A stretch of 64,000 nt of DNA, from positions 1-64,000 of the forward strand of contig JAHWKK010000020.1 in NCBI GenBank assembly GCA_019347945.1. Direction: 5' to 3'. The notes under the pieces are model-generated. The model ran no database searches. It was not told the origin of the DNA and saw only the letters and a program-made list of their open reading frames with translations. The DNA is from Acidobacteriota bacterium. GTDB lineage: Bacteria > Acidobacteriota > Thermoanaerobaculia > Gp7-AA8 > JAHWKK01. Positions 1,434 to 21,136 of this stretch are shown piece after piece. The stretch's first letter is position 1; the number at the start of each line of letters is the position of its first letter. The translations under genes were made by a program, and so were the position numbers.

Positions 1434-1463
1434 TTGACAACATCCCGAGCGAGTGAATAACCT
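1434..1463 (+). promoter_or_regulatory. Candidate sigma70-type promoter of the aro-his-trp operon
   Basis: A perfect TTGACA at 1434-1439 is followed, after 18 bases, by TAACCT at 1458-1463, a weak match to TATAAT. It lies in the divergent gap between the aminotransferase start (1408) and the leader peptide ATG (1470). If used, transcription would begin near 1470, almost at the leader ATG, which also lacks a clear ribosome binding site. This is a motif match only. Confidence 0.35.
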
Positions 1464-1469
1464 CCGGGC

Positions 1470-1520
1470 ATGGCACGACCCGTTCCCTTCACGGCCCATG
1501 GATGGTGGAACGAGTTGTAG
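1470..1520 (+). CDS. trpL: Tandem-Trp leader peptide (trpL-like)
   Basis: A 16-residue reading frame, MARPVPFTAHGWWNEL, ends in TAG at 1518-1520. The two adjacent Trp codons (TGG TGG, 1503-1508) follow a Gly codon, which recalls the GWW of the E. coli trp leader peptide. It lies just upstream of a hairpin chain and terminator and of an operon containing all seven trp functions. The expected role is to couple charged tRNA-Trp supply to ribosome stalling, so its product probably matters little. There is no good Shine-Dalgarno sequence, so it may be translated from a nearly leaderless transcript. The assignment rests on motif and context; there is no family comparison behind it. Confidence 0.75.
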   Translation: MARPVPFTAHGWWNEL

Positions 1521-1521
1521 A

Positions 1522-1605
1522 CGGGGAGTGCTGACTGGCAGCGCCCCGGTACGGAAGGGGCGCGACACTCATGAAGACCTCTTCCGATGCCGGGAGAGGT
1601 TTTTT
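1522..1605 (+). promoter_or_regulatory. Transcription attenuator of the aro-his-trp operon
   Basis: Four successive, mutually exclusive pairings can be drawn. Segment a (1522-1533) pairs with b (1539-1548): CGGGG/CCCCG plus GCTG/CAGC. Segment b (1541-1547) also pairs with c (1557-1563): GCGCCCC/GGGGCGC. Segment c (1552-1560) also pairs with d (1578-1586): CGGAAGGGG/CCTCTTCCG, one G-U. Segment d also pairs with e to form the terminator. A ribosome stalled on the Trp codons would leave a free, allowing a:b and c:d (read-through). A ribosome at the stop codon would cover a, allowing b:c and d:e (termination). The pairings are visible; the regulatory logic is inference. Confidence 0.65.
1577..1605 (+). 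terminator. Intrinsic terminator in the operon leader
   Basis: ACCTCTTCCG (1577-1586) pairs with CGGGAGAGGT (1591-1600) as a 10-bp stem with one G-U pair and the tetraloop ATGC. Six T residues (1600-1605) follow. The U-tract ends 1 base before the aroDE ATG. The only good ribosome binding site for aroDE, GGGAGAGG (1592-1599), is inside the 3' arm, so the hairpin would also block translation of any read-through message. Confidence 0.8.
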
Positions 1606-1606
1606 C

Positions 1607-3037
1607 ATGAGCGAAATCTTTCTGACGATTCACGAGCCGGACGCCGCGGCGGCATTGAGCGCCATCGCGCAGGAGGGGAGCGCGCCGCTCGACGGGTTCG
1701 AGATCCGCGCCGATGCAATCGACCCGGATCGAAAAGGGATCGATCTCGCCGCCTTCCGCAAGGCGACCGATCGTCTCCTCGTCCATACGAGACGCTCATC
1801 CCCGGGCCAGGCGCGATTCGATCGCGAGGAGGCGGAGCGTGCACTGGCGTCGGGATTCGACCTCGTGGACGTCGAGTGGTCGCCCCGGCTCGATCCGGAA
1901 TGGGTGCGTCTTCATCGAGACCGTGTGATCCTGTCGCATCACGACGCCGCGATGCCGGAGCTCGATCCTCTCGCGGAAGAGCTTCGACGTTTTGGAGCCG
2001 CGCGGATCAAGATCGTCGTGACGCCCGAATCGTTTCGCGACGAGCTGAGGATCCTCGAGCTCGTCGCCGGCAGCAGTGCGGCAGGCGATCTGACGGCGTT
2101 CGGGATGGGCGAACGAGCTCTGTACAGCCGGGTGGTCGCACCTTCCCTCGGGTCGAGGATGACGTTCGTCGCCAGGGAGGGACGTCCCGGCGCGCCGGGA
2201 CAGTTGACCATCGATGAGATCGAAAGGGCGGACGTCACGCGACCCGGTCGCGGCTATGCGATCTTCGCGGTCGTCGGCTCGCCGGTCCGTCACTCCCGCT
2301 CGCCGGAGATTCACAACCGGATCTTCCGCGAGCGGCTGCTCCCGGCTCGATACGTCTGCATCGAGCCCCGAACGGTCGCGGAGGTGATCGATGAAATGGC
2401 CGACGGGCATCCGCTTGCGCCGCTCGGAATCAGCGTCACGACTCCCTTCAAGAAGGACGCTTTCGACGCGGGGAAGAAGCGTGGCTGGAGAATCTCACCC
2501 GAGGCAGTGCGGGCATCGGCGGTGAACACGATCGTGATGACGGGGGGACCGGGATTGGCGGCGAACACGGACGTCGACGGCTTCGCACGCCTTCTGGGAG
2601 GCCGCCCGTCCGGCAGCCGCAGCGTCGCGGTCATCGGTGCCGGCGCGACTGGGAGGGCCGCGGTCGTGGCATCCCTGGCAGCTGGACTCGATGTCACGCT
2701 GGTCAATCGCGATTCCGAGAATGGTCGTCGCACCGCGCGCGAGCTCGACGTACGATTGCGCTCTCCCGGCCGGGCGCCAATCGAGGAGGACGTCGTCATC
2801 GACACGCTGCCTCCCGGTCTGATCGACGACTGGGCGGATCTGATCCGGCCCCGGAGGATGTTCATCGAGTCGAGCTATGCTCGCGGTACGGGGGCCTTCG
2901 CGACCGCGATCCGCAGGGAGGCTGGTCTGCAGATACACGACGGAATCGATCTCCTTCATGCGCAGGCCGTTCTCCAGAGTGAGCTCTTCGTGCGGGCGAT
3001 CCAGCGGGCCGTCCGGAAGGAACGGAGTGAGCTATGA
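1607..3037 (+). CDS. aroDE: Bifunctional 3-dehydroquinate dehydratase (type I) / shikimate dehydrogenase
   Basis: A two-domain fusion of 476 residues for two consecutive shikimate-pathway steps: dehydroquinate to dehydroshikimate, then to shikimate with NADPH. The first ~215 residues form a short type I dehydroquinase (early FEIRAD; VILSHHD; IKIVVT, where the lysine is the likely Schiff-base residue). The second part, from FAVVGSPVRHSRSPEIHN, is shikimate dehydrogenase, with VTTPFKKD (shikimate binding and catalytic lysine), a GAGATGRAA nucleotide-binding loop and a C-terminal QAVLQSELF stretch. I chose ATG 1607 because GGGAGAGG lies 7 bases upstream. An in-frame ATG at 1571 would read through the attenuator terminator. 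First structural gene of the operon, supplying the chorismate branch used by trpE. Confidence 0.9.
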   Translation: MSEIFLTIHEPDAAAALSAIAQEGSAPLDGFEIRADAIDPDRKGIDLAAFRKATDRLLVHTRRSSPGQARFDREEAERALASGFDLVDVEWSPRLDPEWVRLHRDRVILSHHDAAMPELDPLAEELRRFGAARIKIVVTPESFRDELRILELVAGSSAAGDLTAFGMGERALYSRVVAPSLGSRMTFVAREGRPGAPGQLTIDEIERADVTRPGRGYAIFAVVGSPVRHSRSPEIHNRIFRERLLPARYVCIEPRTVAEVIDEMADGHPLAPLGISVTTPFKKDAFDAGKKRGWRISPEAVRASAVNTIVMTGGPGLAANTDVDGFARLLGGRPSGSRSVAVIGAGATGRAAVVASLAAGLDVTLVNRDSENGRRTARELDVRLRSPGRAPIEEDVVIDTLPPGLIDDWADLIRPRRMFIESSYARGTGAFATAIRREAGLQIHDGIDLLHAQAVLQSELFVRAIQRAVRKERSEL

Positions 3038-3143: not shown

Positions 3144-4418
3144 ATGAAAACTCTGAAGTACCGCACTCCTCAGGCGAGCCGGTGGCTCCGAAAACAGACC
3201 GAGCAGCGGGCCGAAGCGCTCGCCGAAGCCGCCGAGGCTGCCGCGGTGATCGTGAACGAAGTTCGGGAAGAGGGCGATCGAGCCGTATCGCGATCGATCC
3301 GGCGATTCGATCGCGGCTCGCTCCGGCCGAACGAAATCCTCGAACGGCTCGGACCGAAATCGAAGTCCGGATCGGATCTCGATGCCACGGTCGACCGGAC
3401 GATCGAGCGGATTCGTCAGTTTCACAAGCGTCAGGTGGAAGCGGATTACGCCGTCGAGATCAAGGGGCTCCGTCTGCAGCACCGCGTCCGGCCGATCGAG
3501 CGTGTCGGCGTTTACGTGCCGGGAGGGAAAGCGATCTACATCTCGACTCTTATGATGTGCGTCGTCCCCGCCAGGCTCGCGGGCGTCGACGACATTGTCG
3601 TGGCAACGCCGATGTCCGCGGCGAAGGCTCCGGAGTTTCGTGCGGTGTGCAGGAAGCTCGGCATTCGCGAGATCTACCGGGCCGGGGGTCCTGCGGCGAT
3701 CGCCGCGATGGCTCTCGGCACGCAGACTTTGAAGAAGGTGGACAAGATCGTGGGCCCGGGCAACCGTTACGTGGTGGCGGCCAAACAGCTTCTCAGCCCC
3801 GAAGTCGGGATCGACATGACCGCGGGACCGGCCGAGATCGTGATTCTGGCCGACGAAACGGCGGACGTCGAAATGGTCGCGGCCGAGCTGCTGGCGTGCG
3901 CGGGTGTCGGAGACGGCACTCTCGCGATCTGTGTGACGCCGTCGCCGAAGTTCGAGAAGGATCTCGTGAGCCATCTGAGGAGCTCGAAACGGACGCATGG
4001 ACGGTCGATTGCGGCCGAGCGGTCGCTCGAGCGCAGCGGGGCCATCCTGCTCGTCAGCAACGAGAAGGAAGCCGTGCAGTTCATCAATGAGCATGGACCG
4101 CAGCAGGTTCAGATCATCACCAGAGAGCCCGCAGAAGTCGCTTCGCACATCGTCAACAGCGCGAGCATCGTCCTCGGTGCCCGAACGCCCGTCACGCTCG
4201 GAAGCTACGCAGGTCCGAATCACGTCCTCCCGACCGACGGAACCGCTAGGTTCAACTCACCGCTCGGTGTGTATCACTTCTACCGGAGGACCAACATCGT
4301 CGAGGCAGGCGAAGACCTCGCTCCGGAAATCTTCGACGATGCGATCGAGCTCGCACGAGCGGAAAGAAAACCGCTCCACGCGGCATCTCTCGAATCGAGT
4401 CGGGAGGGAGGCGAGTGA
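3144..4418 (+). CDS. hisD: Histidinol dehydrogenase
   Basis: About 424 residues, the normal HisD length; it catalyses the last two steps of histidine synthesis, L-histidinol to L-histidine with 2 NAD+ and a Zn2+ ion. Family signatures are VGVYVPGGKA, the KIVGPGNRYVVAAK segment, DMTAGPAEIVILAD, and SYAGPNHVLPT followed by the C-terminal SPLGVYHFYRRT block. I start it at ATG 3144; the open frame runs further upstream into aroDE but has no family similarity there. About 106 bases separate it from aroDE, the only real gap in the operon. It overlaps the next gene by 4 bases (GTGA). Histidine genes hisG, hisB, hisC, hisH and hisI/E are not in the window. Confidence 0.93.
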   Translation: MKTLKYRTPQASRWLRKQTEQRAEALAEAAEAAAVIVNEVREEGDRAVSRSIRRFDRGSLRPNEILERLGPKSKSGSDLDATVDRTIERIRQFHKRQVEADYAVEIKGLRLQHRVRPIERVGVYVPGGKAIYISTLMMCVVPARLAGVDDIVVATPMSAAKAPEFRAVCRKLGIREIYRAGGPAAIAAMALGTQTLKKVDKIVGPGNRYVVAAKQLLSPEVGIDMTAGPAEIVILADETADVEMVAAELLACAGVGDGTLAICVTPSPKFEKDLVSHLRSSKRTHGRSIAAERSLERSGAILLVSNEKEAVQFINEHGPQQVQIITREPAEVASHIVNSASIVLGARTPVTLGSYAGPNHVLPTDGTARFNSPLGVYHFYRRTNIVEAGEDLAPEIFDDAIELARAERKPLHAASLESSREGGE

Positions 4419-5896
4419 ACGGTTTCACGGTCATCCCCTCGATCGATCTTCTCGATGGCAAAGTCGTCCGCCTTCTGAGGGGCGACTTCGACGAGGTCAC
4501 GCAGTACGGGGATCCGATCTCGACGGTCGAGCGGTGGCAGATTCCGATGGGCGTGCCCATCCACGTGGTCGACCTCGAGGCTTCGCGAAAAGGGACGCCC
4601 ACGGAGGTTAAGACGATCGCGAAGCTCGCACAGCTCGGCTACCCCACGCAGATCGGCGGAGGTGTCCGCTGTCTCGAAGACGCGAAGCTCTGGATCGATG
4701 CAGGGGCCTCGACGCTCGTCATCGGAACCATTGCGGCCGAGGATCCGGTGATGCTCGAAGCGATCGTACGGACCGTTGGCGCGGAGAAAGTGCTTCCCGC
4801 CGTCGACATGAGCCAAGGGGTGGTACGCGTGTCGGGTTGGGAGACGAGCTCCTCGAAATCGGCTCCGATGATCTTCGAGCATCTGGAGAGAATCGGGCTC
4901 ACATCGGTCCTGATCACCGACATCTCCAGGGACGGGACAATGGATGGGCCCAACTTCCGGCTCTATCGCGAGATCCGGGAGCTCACGAAACTGCGGGTGA
5001 TTGCTTCCGGCGGAGTCGGAACGCTCGAGGACATCACGTCGCTCGCACGCATCCCGGCGCTCGATGGGGTCGTGATCGGAAAAGCGCTCCACGAACGGAC
5101 GTTTACCTGGGCCGAGGCGCACGCGCGCGCGATGACGGCTGCGTCGCTTCCGGCAAAGGTGGTTCCGGTGATGGAGATTCGCGACGGAAGGCTGATGAAC
5201 GGCTACCCGGGAACGCGTGATCCTGGAAGCCCGTCGGAGCTGGCGGCGCGATGGGAAGCGGATGGCGCCGACGAGATTCTGATCATCGAGCGATCCGAGA
5301 CGACCGGCGGAACCGAAGCCGGCATCGCCGTGATCCGTGAGATTACGACGCGCGCGTCGGTGCCGATCGTGGCGGGAGGCGGGATCAGCGAACGCGCCCA
5401 GGTCGCCCGTCTCCGCGAGGCCGGTGCTGATCGTGTGCTCATCGCCGCGGGGGAGCTCGATCTCGATTCTCTAGCCGCCGCCGTGGTCGAGTACGGCTCG
5501 GGCGCAATCGTCGCTCGGATCGACGTCCGGAATGAGGGGGGGGAGATCTCGGCGATGGGGCAGAACGGGGACGAGCTCGATCTCTCCGTCCTTGCCACGC
5601 GGCTGGATGCGATGGGAGTCGGCGAGATCCTCATGGCGTTCGACAAGGACGGCGATCGTTCGTTCTCTCCGGTCCCGGCGCTTCGAACGGTGGGCGCCGC
5701 GGTGCGGACGGGTGTCTCGATCCTGATGAACAGCGCCTCGCGGGAACCGATGCTCGATGCGATCGAGGCGGGCGGGGCCCGCGGAGTCGCGATCCGCGAT
5801 CTCGGAGAAGCGGGCTCGAACCGACTCCTCGCGATCAAGGACGAGCTGCAGCAGCGAGGCATCCCCACACGACACAAACGGAGAAGGGCGCGGTGA
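4415..5896 (+). CDS. HisA-HisF tandem (beta/alpha)8 fusion with degenerate HisF half
   Basis: 493 residues made of two related barrels. Residues 1-245 match HisA (ProFAR isomerase): IPSIDLLDGKVVRL with catalytic D11, IGGGVR, the second catalytic aspartate in LITDISRDGT (D169), and ASGGVG. Residues 248-488 match HisF, the cyclase half of imidazole glycerol phosphate synthase: DPGSPSELAARW, GADEIL, VAGGGI, GVGEILMAFDKDG and a final RGIPTR. In the HisF half the catalytic CLD becomes VME (E254), the VVKG lysine becomes N262, and the late ASGGAG and AAS phosphate loops are lost, while the second aspartate (D410) remains. HisA activity is likely; cyclase activity is doubtful. GTG start overlapping hisD by 4 bases, with GGGAGGCGA just upstream. 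Confidence 0.82.
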   Translation: MNGFTVIPSIDLLDGKVVRLLRGDFDEVTQYGDPISTVERWQIPMGVPIHVVDLEASRKGTPTEVKTIAKLAQLGYPTQIGGGVRCLEDAKLWIDAGASTLVIGTIAAEDPVMLEAIVRTVGAEKVLPAVDMSQGVVRVSGWETSSSKSAPMIFEHLERIGLTSVLITDISRDGTMDGPNFRLYREIRELTKLRVIASGGVGTLEDITSLARIPALDGVVIGKALHERTFTWAEAHARAMTAASLPAKVVPVMEIRDGRLMNGYPGTRDPGSPSELAARWEADGADEILIIERSETTGGTEAGIAVIREITTRASVPIVAGGGISERAQVARLREAGADRVLIAAGELDLDSLAAAVVEYGSGAIVARIDVRNEGGEISAMGQNGDELDLSVLATRLDAMGVGEILMAFDKDGDRSFSPVPALRTVGAAVRTGVSILMNSASREPMLDAIEAGGARGVAIRDLGEAGSNRLLAIKDELQQRGIPTRHKRRRAR

Positions 5897-7179
5897 AAGT
5901 GCAGTCGCTTCCCGGTTTCAGGGATTTCGATCCGGAGCGGATGGCGCTCCGCAACCACATTCTCTCGACCTGGCGGGAGGTTGCGCTCGCCTGGGGATTC
6001 GAGGAATACGATGGCCCGCCGCTCGAGCCGCTCGAGCTCTACATCGAGAAATCGGGCCCGGAGATCGTCGAACAGCTCTTCAATTTCACCGACAAGGGCG
6101 GCAGAGAAGTCGCGCTTCGTCCGGAGATGACGCCGACGATCGTCCGGATGCTCGGCGGCCGGATCAAGGGGATGCCGCTTCCGGTCCGGTGGTTCTCCAT
6201 GCCGCAGCTCTTCCGCTACGAGAAGCAGCAGCGCGGGCGGCTCCGCGAGCATTTCCAGCTCAACATGGACATCGTCGGGGAGACGTCCGTCGATGCCGAT
6301 GCCGATCTGGTCTGCGCGGCGTTCGAAGTTCTCCGGCGTCTCGGGCTGACGAGCGACGACGTCGTCGCCCGGATCTCCGACCGGAGAATTCTCCGGCAGC
6401 TTCTGCTCGAGAGTGGAGTTCCGGAGAATGCCCTCCACGTCGCGTACAACGTCATCGACAAGGTGGAGCGGGACCCGCGCGCGACCTGCATTCAGCGGCT
6501 CGTCGCGATCGGTGTCGATGAAAAGTCGGCAGACCGGATTCTCCGATTCGCCGAGATGTCGCTCGACGACATCCGGCGTGAGTTCCCCGAGAGCGGCGAG
6601 CTTCGCTCGATCGCGGAAGAGCTCGATCGCTATTTCGAAGCGATTACGAACCTCGGTTTCGGCGAATGGGTTCGCTTCGATATGAAGATCGTCAGGGGTC
6701 TCGCGTACTACACCGGAATCGTCTTCGAGATCTTCGACCGGAAGGGGGAGTTGCGCGCAATCTGCGGAGGTGGCCGCTATGACGGGCTCTTTGCCTCGCT
6801 GACCGACTCCGATGTTCCGGCGCTCGGCTTCGGCTTCGGCGACGTCGTTCTCGGGGAGCTTCTCCGGGACCGGTCGCTCGTTCCGAAGGTCTCGTCCGGA
6901 CCGGATACGGTGGTGATTCCCGTCGACGAATCGGTGCGACCGGCGGCGCTGAAGCTGGTGGCCGCTTTGAGGCGGCAGGGGCGCCGGGTCGTCTTCCCCT
7001 ACGGTAAGAGCGGTGTCGGCAAGACACTCAAGAAAGCCGCGTCGCAGGGAATCGCTCAGGCCTGGATTCTCGGACCGGACGAGCTGGCGAGGAACGAGGT
7101 GAAGGTGCGCGAGCTCTCTTCCGGTGAAGAAACGTCACGAGATCTCTCGGGGGTGCTCGGAGAAACGAGCGGTGGCTGA
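5893..7179 (+). CDS. hisS: Histidine-tRNA ligase
   Basis: 428 residues, class II aminoacyl-tRNA synthetase that charges tRNA-His. It opens with LPGFRDFDPE, has a motif-2-like ALRPEMTP and LFRYEKQQRGRLREHFQ region, the histidine-recognition motif RGLAYYTGIVFEIF and the motif-3 region GFGFGDVVL. A C-terminal anticodon-binding domain follows (from about residue 330, VVIPVDES), which argues against the catalytically inactive regulatory paralogue HisZ. The D-to-A change in the usual RGLDYYT is seen in some lineages. GTG start overlaps the preceding stop by 4 bases. A synthetase gene in the middle of an amino-acid operon is unusual and puts His-tRNA charging under the leader that senses Trp. Confidence 0.88.
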   Translation: MKVQSLPGFRDFDPERMALRNHILSTWREVALAWGFEEYDGPPLEPLELYIEKSGPEIVEQLFNFTDKGGREVALRPEMTPTIVRMLGGRIKGMPLPVRWFSMPQLFRYEKQQRGRLREHFQLNMDIVGETSVDADADLVCAAFEVLRRLGLTSDDVVARISDRRILRQLLLESGVPENALHVAYNVIDKVERDPRATCIQRLVAIGVDEKSADRILRFAEMSLDDIRREFPESGELRSIAEELDRYFEAITNLGFGEWVRFDMKIVRGLAYYTGIVFEIFDRKGELRAICGGGRYDGLFASLTDSDVPALGFGFGDVVLGELLRDRSLVPKVSSGPDTVVIPVDESVRPAALKLVAALRRQGRRVVFPYGKSGVGKTLKKAASQGIAQAWILGPDELARNEVKVRELSSGEETSRDLSGVLGETSGG

Positions 7180-8662
7180 AGGATTCTTCACGGCGCTTCG
7201 GAATCCGGACGTTGCCGAGCTCGACGAGCTCCGTCGCGAATGGGAAGTCATTCCCTTCGTTCGTCTGCTCTGCGCGGATACGATTACACCCGTGGCGGCG
7301 TTTCGGAGCCTCGCCGACGGAGGTGAGGCCTTCCTGCTCGAGAGCGTCGAGCGGGGAGAGCAGCTCGGTCGCTACTCGTTTCTCGGAGTCCGGCCGCGCC
7401 GGTCGCTCAGCATCGACTGCGACGATGAAGGAGCAGTGGACCGGCTCCGCGAAGAGCTGAGGCCTCTGCGCGTATGGAGATCGGATGTCCTTCCTCCATT
7501 CTTCGGAGGGGCGGTCGGCTACATCGGTTACGGCGCGGCGCAATGGACCGAGAAACTTCCCGACCGCCACCGCTCCGACGACGATGGGCCAGACGCCGAG
7601 ATCGTTTTCTTCGATCACGTCGTCATCTTCGATCATCTGATGTCGCGTCTTCTCCTCGTCGTCAACATCGTCTCGTCGCGAGAGGAATCCTCGGAGAGTC
7701 TGATCGCGGAAGCGGCGGCGATGCTCGACGACTACGAGAATCTTCTCGCGCGGGCGGCTCCCGATCTGGTGCGATTCGACTCGACCGTAGATTCGAAATT
7801 CGAATCGAACTTCACCCGGGAAGAATTCGAATCCGCCGTCGAGCGTGCGAAGGAGGAGATCCGGGCCGGGGAGGCGTTCCAGATCGTTCTGTCGCAGCGG
7901 TGGACCGTCCCGTTTCCAACCTCGGAAGCGCTGATGTTCTATCGAGCGCTCCGCGCGCTCAATCCCTCTCCCTATATGTTTCTCCTTCGCACGGACGATC
8001 TCACAGTCGTCGGCTCGTCCCCCGAGCTGCTCGTAAGCGTCACCGGCGACCGGCTCGAGACGCATCCGATTGCAGGGACCCGCCCGCGAGGCAGAAACGC
8101 CGAGGAGGACAGGAGGCTCGCCGAGGAACTGCTCGCCGATCCGAAGGAGAACGCGGAGCATCTGATGCTCGTCGATCTCGGACGAAACGACATCGGCAGG
8201 GTGAGCCGCCCGGGAACCGTCCGGGTCGAACGCTTCCGGGAGATCGAGCGGTACAGCCATGTGATGCACATGGTGAGCAGCGTGACGGGGCGGCTCCGGG
8301 AGGATCTGAGTCCGATCGACGCTCTCCTCGCGGCGTTTCCGGCCGGAACCGTCAGCGGCGCGCCCCGGATTCGCGCGATGGAAATCATCGATGAGATCGA
8401 GCCGTCGCGACGAGGCGTCTACGCCGGTGCAATCGCCTACTTCGGCTTCTCCGGAAATCTCGACTCCTGCATCGCAATCCGAACGGTCGTTCTCAGCGGC
8501 GACGTCGCCTCGATCCAGGCGGGTGCCGGGATCGTCTTCGACTCGGTCCCGGCCACCGAATGGCAGGAGACGGTCAACAAAGCCGAGGCGATGCGCACGG
8601 CGCTGTCGCTGGCCCGGGGCGCGCTCGAACAGGACCGGGCGCTCGAGGCGGAAAGAAAATGA
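7172..8662 (+). CDS. trpE: Anthranilate synthase component I
   Basis: About 496 residues; converts chorismate and ammonia from TrpG into anthranilate, the first Trp-specific step. N-terminal LLESVERGEQLGRYSF carries the LLES element that binds the feedback inhibitor tryptophan. The C-terminal chorismate-binding domain shows ALNPSPYMFLL, PIAGTRPRG, DLGRNDIGRV and GTVSGAPRIRAMEI, and ends with WQETVNKAEAM. I prefer GTG 7172 (VAEGFF), overlapping the hisS stop by 8 bases; a GTG at 7124 would add 16 unconserved residues. It overlaps trpG by 4 bases (ATGA). Confidence 0.95.
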   Translation: MAEGFFTALRNPDVAELDELRREWEVIPFVRLLCADTITPVAAFRSLADGGEAFLLESVERGEQLGRYSFLGVRPRRSLSIDCDDEGAVDRLREELRPLRVWRSDVLPPFFGGAVGYIGYGAAQWTEKLPDRHRSDDDGPDAEIVFFDHVVIFDHLMSRLLLVVNIVSSREESSESLIAEAAAMLDDYENLLARAAPDLVRFDSTVDSKFESNFTREEFESAVERAKEEIRAGEAFQIVLSQRWTVPFPTSEALMFYRALRALNPSPYMFLLRTDDLTVVGSSPELLVSVTGDRLETHPIAGTRPRGRNAEEDRRLAEELLADPKENAEHLMLVDLGRNDIGRVSRPGTVRVERFREIERYSHVMHMVSSVTGRLREDLSPIDALLAAFPAGTVSGAPRIRAMEIIDEIEPSRRGVYAGAIAYFGFSGNLDSCIAIRTVVLSGDVASIQAGAGIVFDSVPATEWQETVNKAEAMRTALSLARGALEQDRALEAERK

Positions 8663-9228
8663 TTCTCGTCATCGACAACTACGACTCCTTCACCTGGAAT
8701 CTCGTGCAGCTGCTGGAGATGGCGGGAGAGAAGGACCTCCGGGTCGTCAGAAACGACGAAATCACGGTCGGCGAGGTCGAGGACATGGGCCCATCCGCGA
8801 TCGTGATCTCGCCGGGACCCGGCCGGCCCGAAGGCGCGGGGCGGTGCATCGAGATCGTCAGAGAGACTTCCACCGTGCCGACTCTCGGTGTATGTCTGGG
8901 ACACCAGGCAATCGCGGTGGCGCTCGGAGGATCCGTCCGTCGAAGCGACGTTCCGCGGCATGGCAAGATCAGCCAGGTCAACCACGACGGCAAGGGACTG
9001 TTCCGAGATTGCCGGCCCGGGATGAGCGCGGTCCGGTACCACTCGCTCGAGATCGATCGTGAAACTCTTCCCGCCGAGCTGAAGGTCGTGGCAGAAACTC
9101 CGGACGGGACGATCATGGCGATCGAGCACGTGAGCCGCCCTCTGTGGGGAGTGCAGTTTCACCCGGAATCGTTCGGAACGGATGATGGTGCGAAGATGAT
9201 CGGCAATTTTCTCGAGGAGAGACGGTGA
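8659..9228 (+). CDS. trpG: Anthranilate synthase component II, glutamine amidotransferase
   Basis: 189 residues, a class I glutamine amidotransferase supplying ammonia to TrpE; it may also serve aminodeoxychorismate synthase. It begins MILVIDNYDSFTWN, has the oxyanion-hole SPGPGRP segment, the nucleophile in GVCLGHQ (C79) and the catalytic VQFHPES histidine and glutamate near the C-terminus. The ATG at 8659 overlaps the trpE stop by 4 bases, and the open frame upstream of it is only trpE in another frame. Overlaps trpD by 4 bases. Confidence 0.95.
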   Translation: MILVIDNYDSFTWNLVQLLEMAGEKDLRVVRNDEITVGEVEDMGPSAIVISPGPGRPEGAGRCIEIVRETSTVPTLGVCLGHQAIAVALGGSVRRSDVPRHGKISQVNHDGKGLFRDCRPGMSAVRYHSLEIDRETLPAELKVVAETPDGTIMAIEHVSRPLWGVQFHPESFGTDDGAKMIGNFLEERR

Positions 9229-10241
9229 AGGAAACGATTGCACGTCTGATCGGCGGTGACGATCTCGCGGCAGACGAGGTCCGGGAGCTCTTCGGAGCGA
9301 TGATGGACGGGGAGCTCTCGGAGATTCAGAAGACCGCGGTGCTGGTCGCCCTCCGGATGAAGGGCGAGACTGCCGAGGAGATACGAGGTGCGGCCGAGGC
9401 GATGCGGAGCCGGATGTCATCGATCGAGGTCGACACGACCCATCTGGTCGATACCTGCGGGACGGGCGGCGATGCCCGTGGCACGGTGAACATCTCGACG
9501 ATCGCGGCGATCGTCGCGGCTGGAGCGGGAGCGCGCGTCGCCAAGCACGGCAACCGCGCGGTCTCGTCATCGTGCGGGAGCGCGGACATCCTGCGCGAGC
9601 TCGGCGTCAATGTCTTGATCGATGCAGATCAGATGAAGGAAGTTCTGCGACGCGTCGGCATCGCGTTTCTCTTCGCCCCGGCGCTGCATCCGGCGATGGC
9701 GCAGATGATGCCGGTCCGGACCGAGCTCGGCGTCCGAACGGTCTTCAACGTCCTCGGACCGCTGACCAACCCGGCCCGTGTGAAGCGTCAGGTGCTTGGC
9801 GTGTTCGCATCGGAGCTGGTCGAGCCGCTCGCGGAGGTGCTGCTGCAGCTCGGAGCCGAACATGCGATGGTCGTTCGCGGTCTCGACGGGATGGACGAGA
9901 TCTCGACGACGGCGCCGACGCTCGTCGCGGAGGTTCGGGACGGGCGGGTCACCACGTCGCAGCTCGACCCGGAGAGTCTCGGATTCGAGCGCGCCTCGCT
10001 CGAAGATCTTCGCGGCGGCGATGCAGCGACGAATGCGGGCATCGCCAGGGAAGTGCTGAATGGCGATGAAGGAGCGGTGCGCGACATCGTGGAGCTGAAC
10101 GCCGGCGCCGCGCTCTACGTTTCGGGACTCGCCCGGACGATCGAGGATGGGATCGAGCTCGCAGGGGAGTCGCTCGACTCCGGCGCCGCGAGAAACACGC
10201 TCGATCAACTCGTCCGCGTTTCTCACGAGGTCGCGGAATGA
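9225..10241 (+). CDS. trpD: Anthranilate phosphoribosyltransferase
   Basis: 338 residues; joins anthranilate to PRPP. Family motifs present: DTCGTGGDARGTVNIST (PRPP diphosphate binding), VAKHGNRAVSSSCGSADILRELGV, the RTELGVRTVFNVLGPLTNPA block, and GLDGMDEIS. Starts with GTG overlapping trpG by 4 bases and overlaps trpC by 4 bases, typical of translational coupling. Length and motifs are complete, with nothing missing. Confidence 0.96.
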   Translation: MKETIARLIGGDDLAADEVRELFGAMMDGELSEIQKTAVLVALRMKGETAEEIRGAAEAMRSRMSSIEVDTTHLVDTCGTGGDARGTVNISTIAAIVAAGAGARVAKHGNRAVSSSCGSADILRELGVNVLIDADQMKEVLRRVGIAFLFAPALHPAMAQMMPVRTELGVRTVFNVLGPLTNPARVKRQVLGVFASELVEPLAEVLLQLGAEHAMVVRGLDGMDEISTTAPTLVAEVRDGRVTTSQLDPESLGFERASLEDLRGGDAATNAGIAREVLNGDEGAVRDIVELNAGAALYVSGLARTIEDGIELAGESLDSGAARNTLDQLVRVSHEVAE

Positions 10242-11026
10242 CTGGAATTCTCGATCGGATCGTCACCGGCACGAGGAGAGATCTCGATCGCCTCACCGAA
10301 GCCGAGCGGGAGCGGATTCACCATGCTGCGGCGGCAAAGGGAAAGGGCGACCATCGATTCCGCCGAGCGCTCGAAGAGCCCGGCATCCGGATCATTGCCG
10401 AGATCAAGGCCGCCTCCCCCTCGGCGGGTACCATCGCCGGGGAGGTCGATCCGGAAGCGATCGCGCGCCGGTACGCGGAAGGAGGAGCGGCCGCGCTCTC
10501 GGTCGTGACCGAGCCGCATCACTTTCGCGGGTCGAGAGACTGGATCCCGGAGGCGAAGAAGTCGGACCTGCCGGTCATCATGAAGGATTTCGTGGTCGAT
10601 CCCGTCCAGATCGATCGTGGCTTTCTCGCGGGTGCCGATGCCATTCTGCTGCTCGCTTCGATTCTCGACGAAACGCGGTTGCGCGAGCTTCGGCAGAGAA
10701 TCGAGACTCTCGGTCTCGATGCGCTCGTCGAGGTTCACGATGAAAAAGAGCTGGATCTCGCGCTTTCCTCGGGGGCGCCGATCGTCGGAGTCAACAATCG
10801 CAACCTGCGTACGTTCGAGGTCGATCTACGAACCGCGGAGCGAATCGCCCGGCGCATTCCTCCGGACGTCGTCATGGTCGCCGAAAGCGGCATCCACACG
10901 AGGCGCGACATCGAACGGCTCGAGGCCGCGGGTTATCGGGCTTTTCTCGTCGGGGAAGCGCTGATGCGGGCCGGAGATCCTGTGTCACTTCTCAGGACTC
11001 TGACTGCCGCGGAGGTGGAATCATGA
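10238..11026 (+). CDS. trpC: Indole-3-glycerol-phosphate synthase
   Basis: 262 residues, a single-domain (beta/alpha)8 enzyme closing the indole ring from CdRP. Diagnostic segments are IIAEIKAASPSAG (catalytic lysine in strand 1), LPVIMKDFVVDP, ALVEVHDEKEL, VGVNNRNLRTF and AESGIHTRRD. It is monofunctional; PRAI is the separate next gene. ATG overlaps the trpD stop by 4 bases and the stop overlaps trpF by 4 bases. Confidence 0.96.
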   Translation: MTGILDRIVTGTRRDLDRLTEAERERIHHAAAAKGKGDHRFRRALEEPGIRIIAEIKAASPSAGTIAGEVDPEAIARRYAEGGAAALSVVTEPHHFRGSRDWIPEAKKSDLPVIMKDFVVDPVQIDRGFLAGADAILLLASILDETRLRELRQRIETLGLDALVEVHDEKELDLALSSGAPIVGVNNRNLRTFEVDLRTAERIARRIPPDVVMVAESGIHTRRDIERLEAAGYRAFLVGEALMRAGDPVSLLRTLTAAEVES

Positions 11027-11637
11027 CGCTGGTCAAGATCTGCGGAATCACCCGTCCTGAAGATGCCAGGCTGGCCGTCGAAGCCGGGGCGACGTGGGTC
11101 GGAGTGATTTTCGCTCGAGAATCGAGGCGAAAAATCGATGACGCCGCGGCGAAGGAAGTGAGAGCGGCACTGAACGATCTGGGACATGGTGAGCTCGTCG
11201 GAGTTTTCGTGAATGAGGATCCCGCGCGGATCAACCGGCTCTGCCGGGACGTCGGTCTCGATCGTGTGCAGCTCCATGGTGACGAGTCAGACGTCGACAT
11301 CGAACGCATCGTTGTTCCGGTGATCCGAGCCATTCGGGTGGGTGCGGCCCCTCCGGAGATGCCAGTGGGGGGTTCGCCCGGGATGTGGCTGTTCGATACC
11401 GCCGACGCGTCGGGAAGGGGAGGCACGGGAAAATCTTTCGACTGGAAACTGCTCGACGCATTGCAGGGACATCGCCCGTTTCTGCTCTCCGGCGGACTCG
11501 ATCCGGAGAACGTCGCCGACGCGATTCGCCGCGTCCGGCCCGACGGAGTCGACGTGGCCAGCGGGATCGAGTCGTCCCCCGGAATCAAGGATCACGACAA
11601 GCTCCGCGCCTTCATTCGCGAGGTGAAGAATGCGTGA
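11023..11637 (+). CDS. trpF: Phosphoribosylanthranilate isomerase
   Basis: 204 residues, isomerising phosphoribosylanthranilate to CdRP. The N-terminal [12 protein letters not shown] carries the catalytic cysteine; later landmarks are [11 protein letters not shown], the [19 protein letters not shown] loop with the general-acid aspartate, [11 protein letters not shown] and [15 protein letters not shown]. Overlaps trpC by 4 bases and trpB by 8 bases. Complete and ordinary. Confidence 0.95.
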
Positions 11638-12826
11638 GACGCTTCCCGACAGTGACGGATGGTTCGGCCGGTTCGGAGGGAAGTACGTCCCCGAGACGCT
11701 GATCTACCCGATCGATGAGCTCGGGAAAGCGTACGGGAAGGCGAGAAAGGATCGCGACTTCCGCAACGAGCTCGATGATCTCCTGCGCGACTACGTCGGC
11801 CGCCCCAGCGCGCTGACCGAGGCACCCGGGTTTGTCTATGCGATCGGCGGTGACTTTCGCCTCTTTCTCAAGCGAGAGGATCTGAACCACACCGGCGCCC
11901 ACAAGATCAACAACGCTCTCGGTCAGGCGCTGCTTGCCAGGCGGATGGGGAAGAAGCGAATCATCGCCGAGACCGGTGCGGGCCAGCACGGCGTCGCAAC
12001 AGCGACGGCCTGCGCGCTGCTCGGGCTCGACTGCGTCGTCTACATGGGACGCGTCGACATGGAGCGACAGGCACCCAACGTCTACAGGATGAGGATCCTC
12101 GGAGCCGACGTCGTCCCTGTTGATTCCGGAAGCAGGACGCTGAAGGATGCGATCAACGAAGCGATCCGCGACTGGGTCACGAACGTCGCGACGACCCACT
12201 ACATCATCGGATCGGTGCTCGGTCCGCACCCCTACCCGATGATCGTCCGGGATTTCCAGTCGGTCATCGGACGGGAAGCGATCGAGCAGCTCGACAATGC
12301 CGTCGGGAGACTGCCGAACACCGCAATCGCATGCGTCGGCGGGGGCTCGAATGCAATCGGTCTTTTTCACGCGTTGATCAGGAAGAAGAAGGTCCGGCTG
12401 ATCGGGGTCGAAGCGGGCGGATCCGCGCTCGAGCCCGGGAAGCACGCCGCACGATTTTCCGGCGGTTCGGAAGGCGTCCTTCACGGAACCCGATCGATGT
12501 TGCTCCAGGACGAGGCGGGACAGATCCTCGAGACGCATTCCGTTTCGGCAGGGCTCGACTATCCGTCAATAGGTCCCGAGCACGCGTTTCACCAGGAGTC
12601 CGGGCGGATCGAGTACACCTCGTGCGACGACGACACCGCGGTCGAGGCCTTCCACCTGCTCAGTCGATCGATGGGGATCATTCCCGCCCTCGAGTCCGCT
12701 CACGCCCTCGGTTATCTCCTCCGGAATCCGGACGAGCATCGCGGGGAGATCGTCCTGCTCAATCTCTCGGGAAGGGGAGACAAGGACGTTGCGACGGTCG
12801 CCCGGCTCGAGGGGGATTCGATTTGA
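11630..12826 (+). CDS. trpB: Tryptophan synthase beta subunit
   Basis: 398 residues, PLP-dependent beta-replacement of serine hydroxyl by indole. It is a TrpB1-type sequence: [13 protein letters not shown] near the N-terminus, the PLP lysine in [10 protein letters not shown] (K92), [13 protein letters not shown], the phosphate-binding [10 protein letters not shown] loop, and a C-terminal [11 protein letters not shown]. It forms the alpha2beta2 channel complex with trpA, which follows with a 4-base overlap. Confidence 0.97.
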
Positions 12827-13611
12827 GCCGGATCACGAAAATGTTTCGCCGGCTCGACCGCGAAGAGCGGTGCGGCCTGATCGCGTACGTCACATGCGGA
12901 CATCCCGACCTCGAAACGATTCCGGAGATCGTCGAAGCGCTCGAAGCGAGCGGCGCCGATGCCATCGAGCTGGGAGTCCCGTTTTCCGATCCGATCGCCG
13001 ACGGTCCCGTCATCCAGTCCTCTTCCCGGCATGCGCTGCAGCGAGGGGTGTCGACGGCGGATTGCATCGCCGTTGCGGCCGCGATTCGTGAACGATCGGA
13101 GATTCCGCTCATACTTTTCTCCTACGTCAACCCGCTCATGAGACTCGGCGCGGGAGGTCTCGCGAAGAGCGCCGACGCCGCCGGGATCGATGCCGTGCTG
13201 ATCACCGATCTCCCGCCGGAGGCCTCGGGTGAGTTTCGCCGGGCACTCTCCCGCCGGAAAATCGGAATGATCTTCCTCGCATCTCCGACCTCGTCGGCGG
13301 CGAGGCTGCGGCTCATCGACCAGAAGAGCGACGGATTCGTCTACTACGTGTCGACGACCGGCGTCACCGGGCCCCGACGCGAGCTCGAGGAAGATCTCAC
13401 CGCGCGGCTCGATGCCGTCCGGGCGAAGCTGAAGAAGCCGCTCGCCGTCGGCTTCGGGGTTTCGGAGCATCAGCACTACGAAGCGCTGCGGGATCACTGC
13501 GACGCTGTCGTCGTCGGAAGCGCGATCGTCCGGGCGATCGGTGAGGGTAAGCGCTCCGGAGCCGCAAAGCGAGCGGCCTCGGTGGTGAGCCGGATCAGGG
13601 GTGGCGTGTAG
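12823..13611 (+). CDS. trpA: Tryptophan synthase alpha subunit
   Basis: 262 residues; cleaves indole-3-glycerol phosphate to indole and glyceraldehyde-3-phosphate. I chose the TTG at 12823, which overlaps the trpB stop (TTGA) and has GAGGGGGA a few bases upstream. With this start the catalytic residues in [14 protein letters not shown] fall at E49 and D60, the same numbers as in the E. coli enzyme. Other landmarks are [30 protein letters not shown] and [11 protein letters not shown]. An ATG at 12841 is the alternative. Last gene of the operon. Confidence 0.95.
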
Positions 13612-20448: not shown

Positions 20449-20847
20449 CGCGGAACTTCAGCATACACCCGATCGCAAGCCTTACGAATCGGGCATGCCC
20501 CTGAAAGCAGTCTCTCCGGGCGGGAGAAGATGGGAAGAAGAGCCGAGAAGAGGAGAAGAGGATCACACCTCAGTACAGTCATCGTAGTCGGAACCAGAAT
20601 GGCTCCGCCGTTCAGAAAGAATTCGAGGCACGCCTCGCGACCTCCGGGAACGCGGCCGAGAAGATGCGTCGCCTCGGTGAGGTTGGGTCACAGCCAGAGA
20701 ATCAACTTCCGGCCTCGTTAAGTTGCGTTTCTGGCCCTGGCCCCAACTTCCCGAATCTTGACCCGGGCACGCACTCCGATGGGTGGCCCCAATTTGCCTT
20801 TTTCGCTTAGGCTTCTGCCAGTAGATTTGTTCGGAAATGTCAGCATG

Positions 20848-20873
20848 GAGAGGCGCCCGATCGGGCGCCTCTC
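20848..20873. terminator. 26-bp perfect palindrome
   Basis: GAGAGGCGCCC and GGGCGCCTCTC (20848-20858, 20863-20873) flank GATC, so the whole 26 bases read the same on both strands. The stem would be very stable. No T run follows on either side, so it could be a factor-dependent terminator, a protein site or a REP-like unit. Confidence 0.5.
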
Positions 20874-21136
20874 GTACGTTCAGCGATCAGCGATCAGCAA
20901 TCACTCGATTGAACAGTTGTCGGAGCTCTGAGACGTCAGCCGTTTTACCCGCGTTTTTGCAGCGAGAGGCTCATCGCACGGTCCTCTGGCGACTCCCGAA
21001 GGTTGCACGCTTCTTCTCGGCCTGTCACACGCCGACTTCCGCGGCATTACAGCCTGACGGCAGAGGCGGCAATTGTCAGGACGGATTGGAGGGTCACCCA
21101 TTGCGACCAGACCCGGTTTGATCCGCGCAGCATAGA

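Follow-up and report, generated by a model that had tools for sequence, protein, structure and literature searches.

Which signal governs a transcript that joins shikimate, histidine, tRNA-charging and tryptophan genes? A predicted transcript of this kind, aroDE-hisD-hisAF-hisS-trpEGDCFBA, lies near the start of the 64,000-nucleotide stretch of DNA analysed here (the window), which comes from a genome of the class Thermoanaerobaculia in the phylum Acidobacteriota. A preliminary description, made from the window alone, had placed in front of it a trp-type attenuator with one pairing more than that of E. coli. Comparison with relatives makes it very probable that the whole aro-his-trp transcript is controlled by a five-segment, ribosome-mediated (leader-peptide) attenuator that senses both Trp and His.

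Leader anatomy and the downstream operon

Directly 5' of aroDE, window positions 1470-1605 hold five RNA segments, a to e, that form four mutually exclusive pairings, together with a predicted U6 terminator (Table 1). The pairings are a:b (1522-1533/1539-1548), b:c (1541-1547/1557-1563, GCGCCCC/GGGGCGC), c:d (1552-1560/1578-1586, CGGAAGGGG/CCUCUUCCG, with one G-U) and d:e (1577-1586/1591-1600), the last running into the U6 tract. All coordinates first given for the leader, the segments and the U tract proved exact to the base. The leader ORF reads ATG GCA CGA CCC GTT CCC TTC ACG GCC CAT GGA TGG TGG AAC GAG TTG TAG; the preliminary description was right about both Trp codons but had passed over the His codon CAT. 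The RNA from 1470 to 1606 folds at -66.9 kcal/mol (z = -4.4), and none of 200 shuffled sequences was equally stable. Terminators were scored with a purpose-made pattern and folding; a strict promoter and terminator pattern search made no call at the window leader.

Table 1. Features of the predicted attenuator and of the operon behind it, in window coordinates
Feature	Position	Strand	Basis or remark
Predicted sigma-70 promoter	1434..1461	+	TTGACA 1434-1439, spacer 16, AATAAC 1456-1461; weak -10
Leader peptide ORF MARPVPFTAHGWWNEL	1470..1520	+	16 codons; homologous leaders known; predicted (near-)leaderless
His codon CAT of leader	1497..1499	+	Sequence; His codons commoner in the leaders of operons with his genes
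Tandem Trp codons TGG TGG, main regulatory codons in the window	1503..1508	+	Sequence
Segment a, partner of b	1522..1533	+	Begins 1 nt past the stop codon; covered by a ribosome at the stop
Segment b, partner of a or c	1539..1548	+	Sequence, conserved helices, covariation
Segment c, partner of b or d	1552..1563	+	Sequence, conserved helices, covariation
Segment d, partner of c (antiterminator) or e (terminator)	1577..1586	+	Sequence, folding
Segment e, with Shine-Dalgarno-like GGGAGAGG (1592-1599) of aroDE	1591..1600	+	Sequence
U6 tract of the predicted intrinsic terminator	1600..1605	+	Sequence
aroDE, type I 3-dehydroquinate dehydratase / shikimate dehydrogenase fusion, first controlled gene	1607..3037	+	
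hisD, histidinol dehydrogenase	3144..4418	+	
hisA fused to a second, diverged hisF-like His_biosynth domain	4415..5896	+	Second domain below hisF cut-off
hisS, histidyl-tRNA synthetase	5893..7179	+	Sole copy above HisRS cut-off in the genome
trpE	7124..8662	+	Longest ORF; true start possibly later
trpG	8659..9228	+	
trpD	9225..10241	+	Homology in relatives
trpC	10238..11026	+	
trpF	11023..11637	+	
trpB	11630..12826	+	
trpA	12841..13611	+	

The genes follow in the order aroDE-hisD-hisAF-hisS-trpE-G-D-C-F-B-A, with an aspartate-aminotransferase-like gene as divergent neighbour, and homologues of aroDE begin at the same position as its ATG at 1607. Searches of the window genome (99.65% complete) found no hisG, hisB (IGPD) or hisI (PRA-CH), and no hisF above the cut-off. 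The his cluster, complete in relatives, is thus cut to hisD-hisAF here, and the organism is probably unable to make histidine de novo. The element had been proposed to control shikimate, histidine, His-tRNA synthetase and Trp genes; this stands for aroDE, hisS and the trp genes, while the histidine part shrinks to a remnant hisD and the hisA/hisF fusion. With hisG, hisB and hisI absent, "histidine" control would here be mainly control of HisRS.

Distribution in Thermoanaerobaculia

We found aroDE in 137 of 147 Thermoanaerobaculia genomes and took 100 loci for comparison. In many families of the class, the region upstream of aroDE carries a TTGACA promoter, a short Trp/His-rich ORF, five segments and a hairpin with a T-rich tail. 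Examples of the leaders are MNASLRLWWWPSSE (G001), MHADRSHWWWHGRR (G017), MFLTSWHWHWHHG (G036), GWWHGVHHHGDF (G098), AWAWRTHHHHAVS (G116) and MRIETRRHHHHWHWTVRR (G133). Aligned with one another, the leaders of relatives conserve both the Trp codons and the hairpin pairings, whose lack of conservation would have spoken against the original proposal. Among the loci compared, no attenuator precedes aroDE in families f6, f15 (mostly) and f16 and in several members of f2. In several of these f2 genomes, aroDE lies closely behind other genes. At one f17 locus (L193, genome G114), the attenuator is relocated between aroDE and trpE, around position 4.9 kb of the oriented locus, with the leader TLSGWWWLSHIHWTGV and the terminator AAAGCTCCTTCCGGTCCGGAAGGAGCTTTTTT.

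Hairpins and short ORFs are common in GC-rich DNA, and the element might in principle be a chance ORF beside an unrelated terminator. As a control, we scanned for strong U-tailed hairpins preceded, at 25-90 nt, by the end of a short ORF with at least two Trp codons. On both strands of the window, this pattern returned the attenuator site (score 38) and one weaker match (20847, score 33), and 2.07 Mb of relatives' sequence gave a single further match, which resembles a trpE leader and probably is one. The attenuator is the sole strong candidate within the window. Since the element is also kept across the class, we rejected a chance origin, which we regard as vanishingly improbable. The weaker match in the window covers 20847-20874 (LRFWPWPQLPES) and is probably itself due to chance.

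Compensatory changes in the alternative helices

The four pairings recur in the class with differing sequences. We aligned leaders separately per family group: A3 (the window's order), A5 (f7, f8, f12-f15 and f18) and A6 (f10). All four pairings were recovered independently as conserved helices in A6, and b:c, c:d and d:e in A3 and A5. Indels put the MAFFT columns of a:b out of register in A3 and A5, and column support for this helix comes only from A6 and partly from A4.

A covariation check on homologous leaders, suggested in the preliminary description, came out in favour of the switch: compensatory changes in b:c and d:e exceed those in shuffles and slid controls. In A5, nine pairs of b:c and d:e changed on both sides, versus 4.4 in shuffles, with a covariation score above all 500 shuffles; in A6, the score of b:c and d:e was exceeded by 1 of 500 shuffles and that of a:b and c:d by 19 of 500, all comparisons that sequence relatedness inflates, so that covariation is supportive and not proof. 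The c:d helix of A5 is 90% paired with few double changes, and its covariation does not surpass that of shuffles. Near the window, strong conservation of the pairings deprives covariation of most of its information. A triple change in G046 and G131 illustrates the coupling of the segments: at one position, b went from C to U, c from G to A and d from C to U together, which keeps both b:c and c:d.

Ribosome position and the sign of the switch

In the mechanism we propose, the leader ORF would be translated from the extreme 5' end of the transcript. Under a shortage of charged tRNA-Trp or tRNA-His, the ribosome would stall at CAT or TGG TGG and leave a uncovered, a:b would form, and the unpaired c would join the emerging d in the antiterminator c:d; with e thus single-stranded, polymerase would read through and the aroDE Shine-Dalgarno would be accessible. 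With both tRNAs plentiful, a ribosome at UAG would cover a, b:c would form and d would be available for e; the d:e terminator would then form before U6, and the same hairpin would conceal the aroDE Shine-Dalgarno.

We folded each transcript to the end of d with a masked ribosome whose 3' edge lay 12 nt past the start of the A-site codon. In 42 of 55 leaders, c:d pairing was higher for a ribosome at the first Trp or His codon than for one at the stop; 12 showed no discrimination, and one (G006) was reversed. The mean difference between stalled and stop positions was 0.227, versus 0.037 +/- 0.021 with the region from the stop to d shuffled. With the stall moved to the last regulatory codon, often a His codon, c:d was favoured by 43 to 1. 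The masked fold of the window, which had been named earlier as a check, gave a c:d value of 0.61 with the ribosome stalled versus 0.09 at the stop, and 0.34 without a ribosome. The model suggests that an untranslated leader would tend to read through, unlike that of E. coli trp. The sign first proposed, in which a Trp stall frees a for antitermination while a ribosome at the stop masks a for termination, agrees with the conserved layout, the compensatory changes, the mask folding and its shuffles; class-wide layout, compensatory changes and folding likewise bear out the additional pairing.

The sign also appears to survive the loss of two segments, as the parity of the chain would predict. In G002, a and b are lost while c, d and e are kept, the Trp codons lie next to c and the stop codon abuts c; its c:d value is 0.51 stalled versus 0.03 at the stop. 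Two segments can be gained or lost without a change of sign because in either form the first segment is the one covered by a ribosome at the stop. G002, and the Vicinamibacteria described below, operate with three segments, and the 12 five-segment leaders in which masking a has no clear effect could likewise be taken to mean that only c, d and e matter, with a:b serving for insulation or pausing and the four-step scheme excessive. Yet conservation of b:c is accompanied by compensatory changes in two independent sets, the effect is gone once the region from a to c is shuffled, and the stop codon of the five-segment leaders abuts a and not c, so that a ribosome there could not mask c and, without b:c, the terminator would never win. 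We therefore consider a switch limited to three segments quite unlikely in these leaders and retain the five-segment chain.

Transcription start and output

An exact TTGACA stands at the equivalent position in 50 of 55 leaders. In the window, the leader ATG lies 8 nt past the -10 hexamer, and the distance is 7-11 nt in most families. The best promoter match would start transcription near 1468-1470, and not downstream of 1520, where a start would have counted against the attenuator first proposed. The leader AUG would thus sit at the predicted transcription start, and most leader ORFs appear to be leaderless.

In 43 of 55 leaders, the Shine-Dalgarno of aroDE lies inside segment e, with a start codon 8-18 nt downstream. 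Formation of the terminator hairpin should therefore prevent translation of aroDE as well, and the output might even be mainly translational, d:e hiding the Shine-Dalgarno and start of aroDE and the U tract being minor. The U-poor tails that follow the hairpin in some lineages (families f8 and f10) fit such an output, as tails such as GGTCTTCCCGTTT and GGTTTGAGTTG would make poor terminators, and termination may be weak there. In the window, however, U6 directly follows the hairpin, and in G001, G010, G014 and G017, 28-121 nt separate the terminator (U6 to U9) from the first possible aroDE start, so that hiding the Shine-Dalgarno is impossible there and only termination can act. A mainly translational output is accordingly unlikely, and we favour a terminator that, in most leaders, would also hide the ribosome-binding site.

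Leader codons follow the gene content of the operon

If His is sensed together with Trp, His codons should go with his genes. We counted His codons in the last 16 codons of called leaders with known downstream genes. The mean was 2.88 in 40 his-containing operons versus 0.31 in 13 without his (Mann-Whitney p = 5.6e-7), and at least one His codon occurred in 38 of 40 versus 3 of 13 (Fisher p = 8.5e-7); the lineages are not independent in these counts, and within f2, f10 and f14 the direction is the same. The two his-containing exceptions, G063 and G064, have leader calls that look spurious by eye, as does that of G091, and all three were retained in the statistics. Operons with his genes have leaders with Trp plus His codons (SWHWHWHHG, AWAWRTHHHHAVS), whereas those without have mainly Trp alone. 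The full layout is seen in G098, aroDE-hisZ-hisG-hisD-hisC-hisB-hisH-hisA-hisF-hisIE-trp.

The His-rich peptide could merely be inherited, with Trp alone regulating: the his-containing operons are clustered in the phylogeny, which makes the counts non-independent, and the window has only one His codon. Within families, however, f2 leaders contain 1 and 3 His codons with hisS versus 0, 0, 0, 0, 1 and 0 without, those of f14 contain 3 and 4 versus 2 and 1, and those of f10 contain 1, 1 and 1 where hisD alone was detected. The leaders of G118, G046 and G131 contain runs of His (HHHH or HHH) but no Trp, and a stall at the last regulatory codon gave the same fold result. Regulation by Trp alone is hence rather improbable. 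Judged by codon content, the sensor of relatives includes His codons, of which the window retains one. Across Thermoanaerobaculia, the regulatory codons match the gene content, and the switch would act as an OR gate for Trp or His shortage. In the three leaders without a Trp codon (L161, L234 and L220 in G118, G046 and G131, respectively), the switch layout is kept and Trp sensing seems lost.

In Vicinamibacteria, a leader with Trp, Tyr and Phe codons (..SSWWYYGF..) precedes aroDE-trpEGDCFBA in a three-segment form with c within the ORF. The operon continues with DAHP synthase and prephenate dehydrogenase genes in L054 and with a DAHP synthase gene in L067. Trp/Tyr/Phe-rich leaders (SSWWYYGF, SWWWYYAF) lie upstream of aroDE in L054, L055, L056, L059, L068, L070 and L093. 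Leaders of this type have a strongly conserved tail, TGEA(R/H)LP(A/S).

Three features of a leader-peptide attenuator are found together here: a short translatable ORF with codons for the operon's amino acids; mutually exclusive helices, including a predicted intrinsic terminator, that are kept in relatives; and, in silico, a choice of structure between ribosomes at the regulatory codons and at the stop. More broadly, we lean towards a class-wide attenuator family in Acidobacteriota that is bivalent, with codons reprogrammed in the course of evolution to suit operon content (Trp; Trp and His; Trp, Tyr and Phe in Vicinamibacteria), an odd segment chain that is ON when untranslated, leaderless ORFs and a terminator that also hides the ribosome-binding site of the first gene. 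The phylum would thereby gain a conserved attenuator with a clear logic. It also offers a natural experiment, in which dozens of lineages gained or lost downstream his genes and the sensor codons changed to match. How attenuators come to sense a second amino acid, how a switch grows from three to five segments with its sign retained, and whether an essential HisRS is coupled to Trp supply in an organism deficient in histidine biosynthesis can now be tested.

Comparison with known systems

Sensing of both Trp and His by a five-segment chain, in keeping with a mixed operon, is apparently new and undescribed in the phylum. A 2010 survey had almost no predicted attenuator with an associated function in Acidobacteria (PMC2965389). 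In the open-access literature, we found no earlier description of mixed Trp/His leaders or of Thermoanaerobaculia leader peptides, and a prior mention is possible. The Rfam models for Trp_leader (RF00513), His_leader (RF00514) and the T-box had no match at gathering score in the window or in 20 related loci, and relaxed thresholds gave only two chance matches, below threshold. A T-box riboswitch, with no covariance model match in this set, was rejected.

As in the E. coli trp leader (RF00513), tandem Trp codons lie in a short ORF, the hairpins are mutually exclusive, a terminator precedes the trp genes and a stall would mean read-through. Unlike that leader, which belongs to the Rfam model that does not match here, the element has five segments instead of four and an aro-his-trp operon; its segment a follows the stop codon, where a stalled ribosome would leave it free instead of covering segment 1, and the untranslated leader is predicted to read through and not to terminate.

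In the enteric thrL, ilvL and ilvB leaders, a single peptide has codons for several amino acids made by the operon. The leader here is likewise multivalent, but the amino acids of those leaders share a pathway, whereas Trp and His share no biosynthetic branch beyond PRPP, and its codon content varies with the genes of each lineage.

In the Salmonella his leader (RF00514), the pause hairpin and the terminator are separated by a further hairpin (PMC1183508). That leader resembles the present element in its chain of more than three alternating pairings and in the His-codon runs seen in relatives of the class, and differs in that the codons here are mixed Trp and His, the number of segments is odd and not even, and its Rfam model finds no match. 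The trpL (rnTrpL) leader ORF of Sinorhizobium meliloti is leaderless and serves Trp attenuation of trpE(G) (PMC7298713). Our leader ORF likewise starts where transcription is predicted to begin, but in a different phylum, operon and RNA layout; S. meliloti trpL responds to Trp only.

Actinobacterial trp attenuators have double or triple UGG codons and complementary triples that form antiterminator and terminator (PMC1262725). The study found no such structures before histidine operons. Unlike the element here, the actinobacterial attenuators have no His codons, and no a:b and b:c steps are reported for them; it is the c-d-e core of our switch that the complementary triples resemble.
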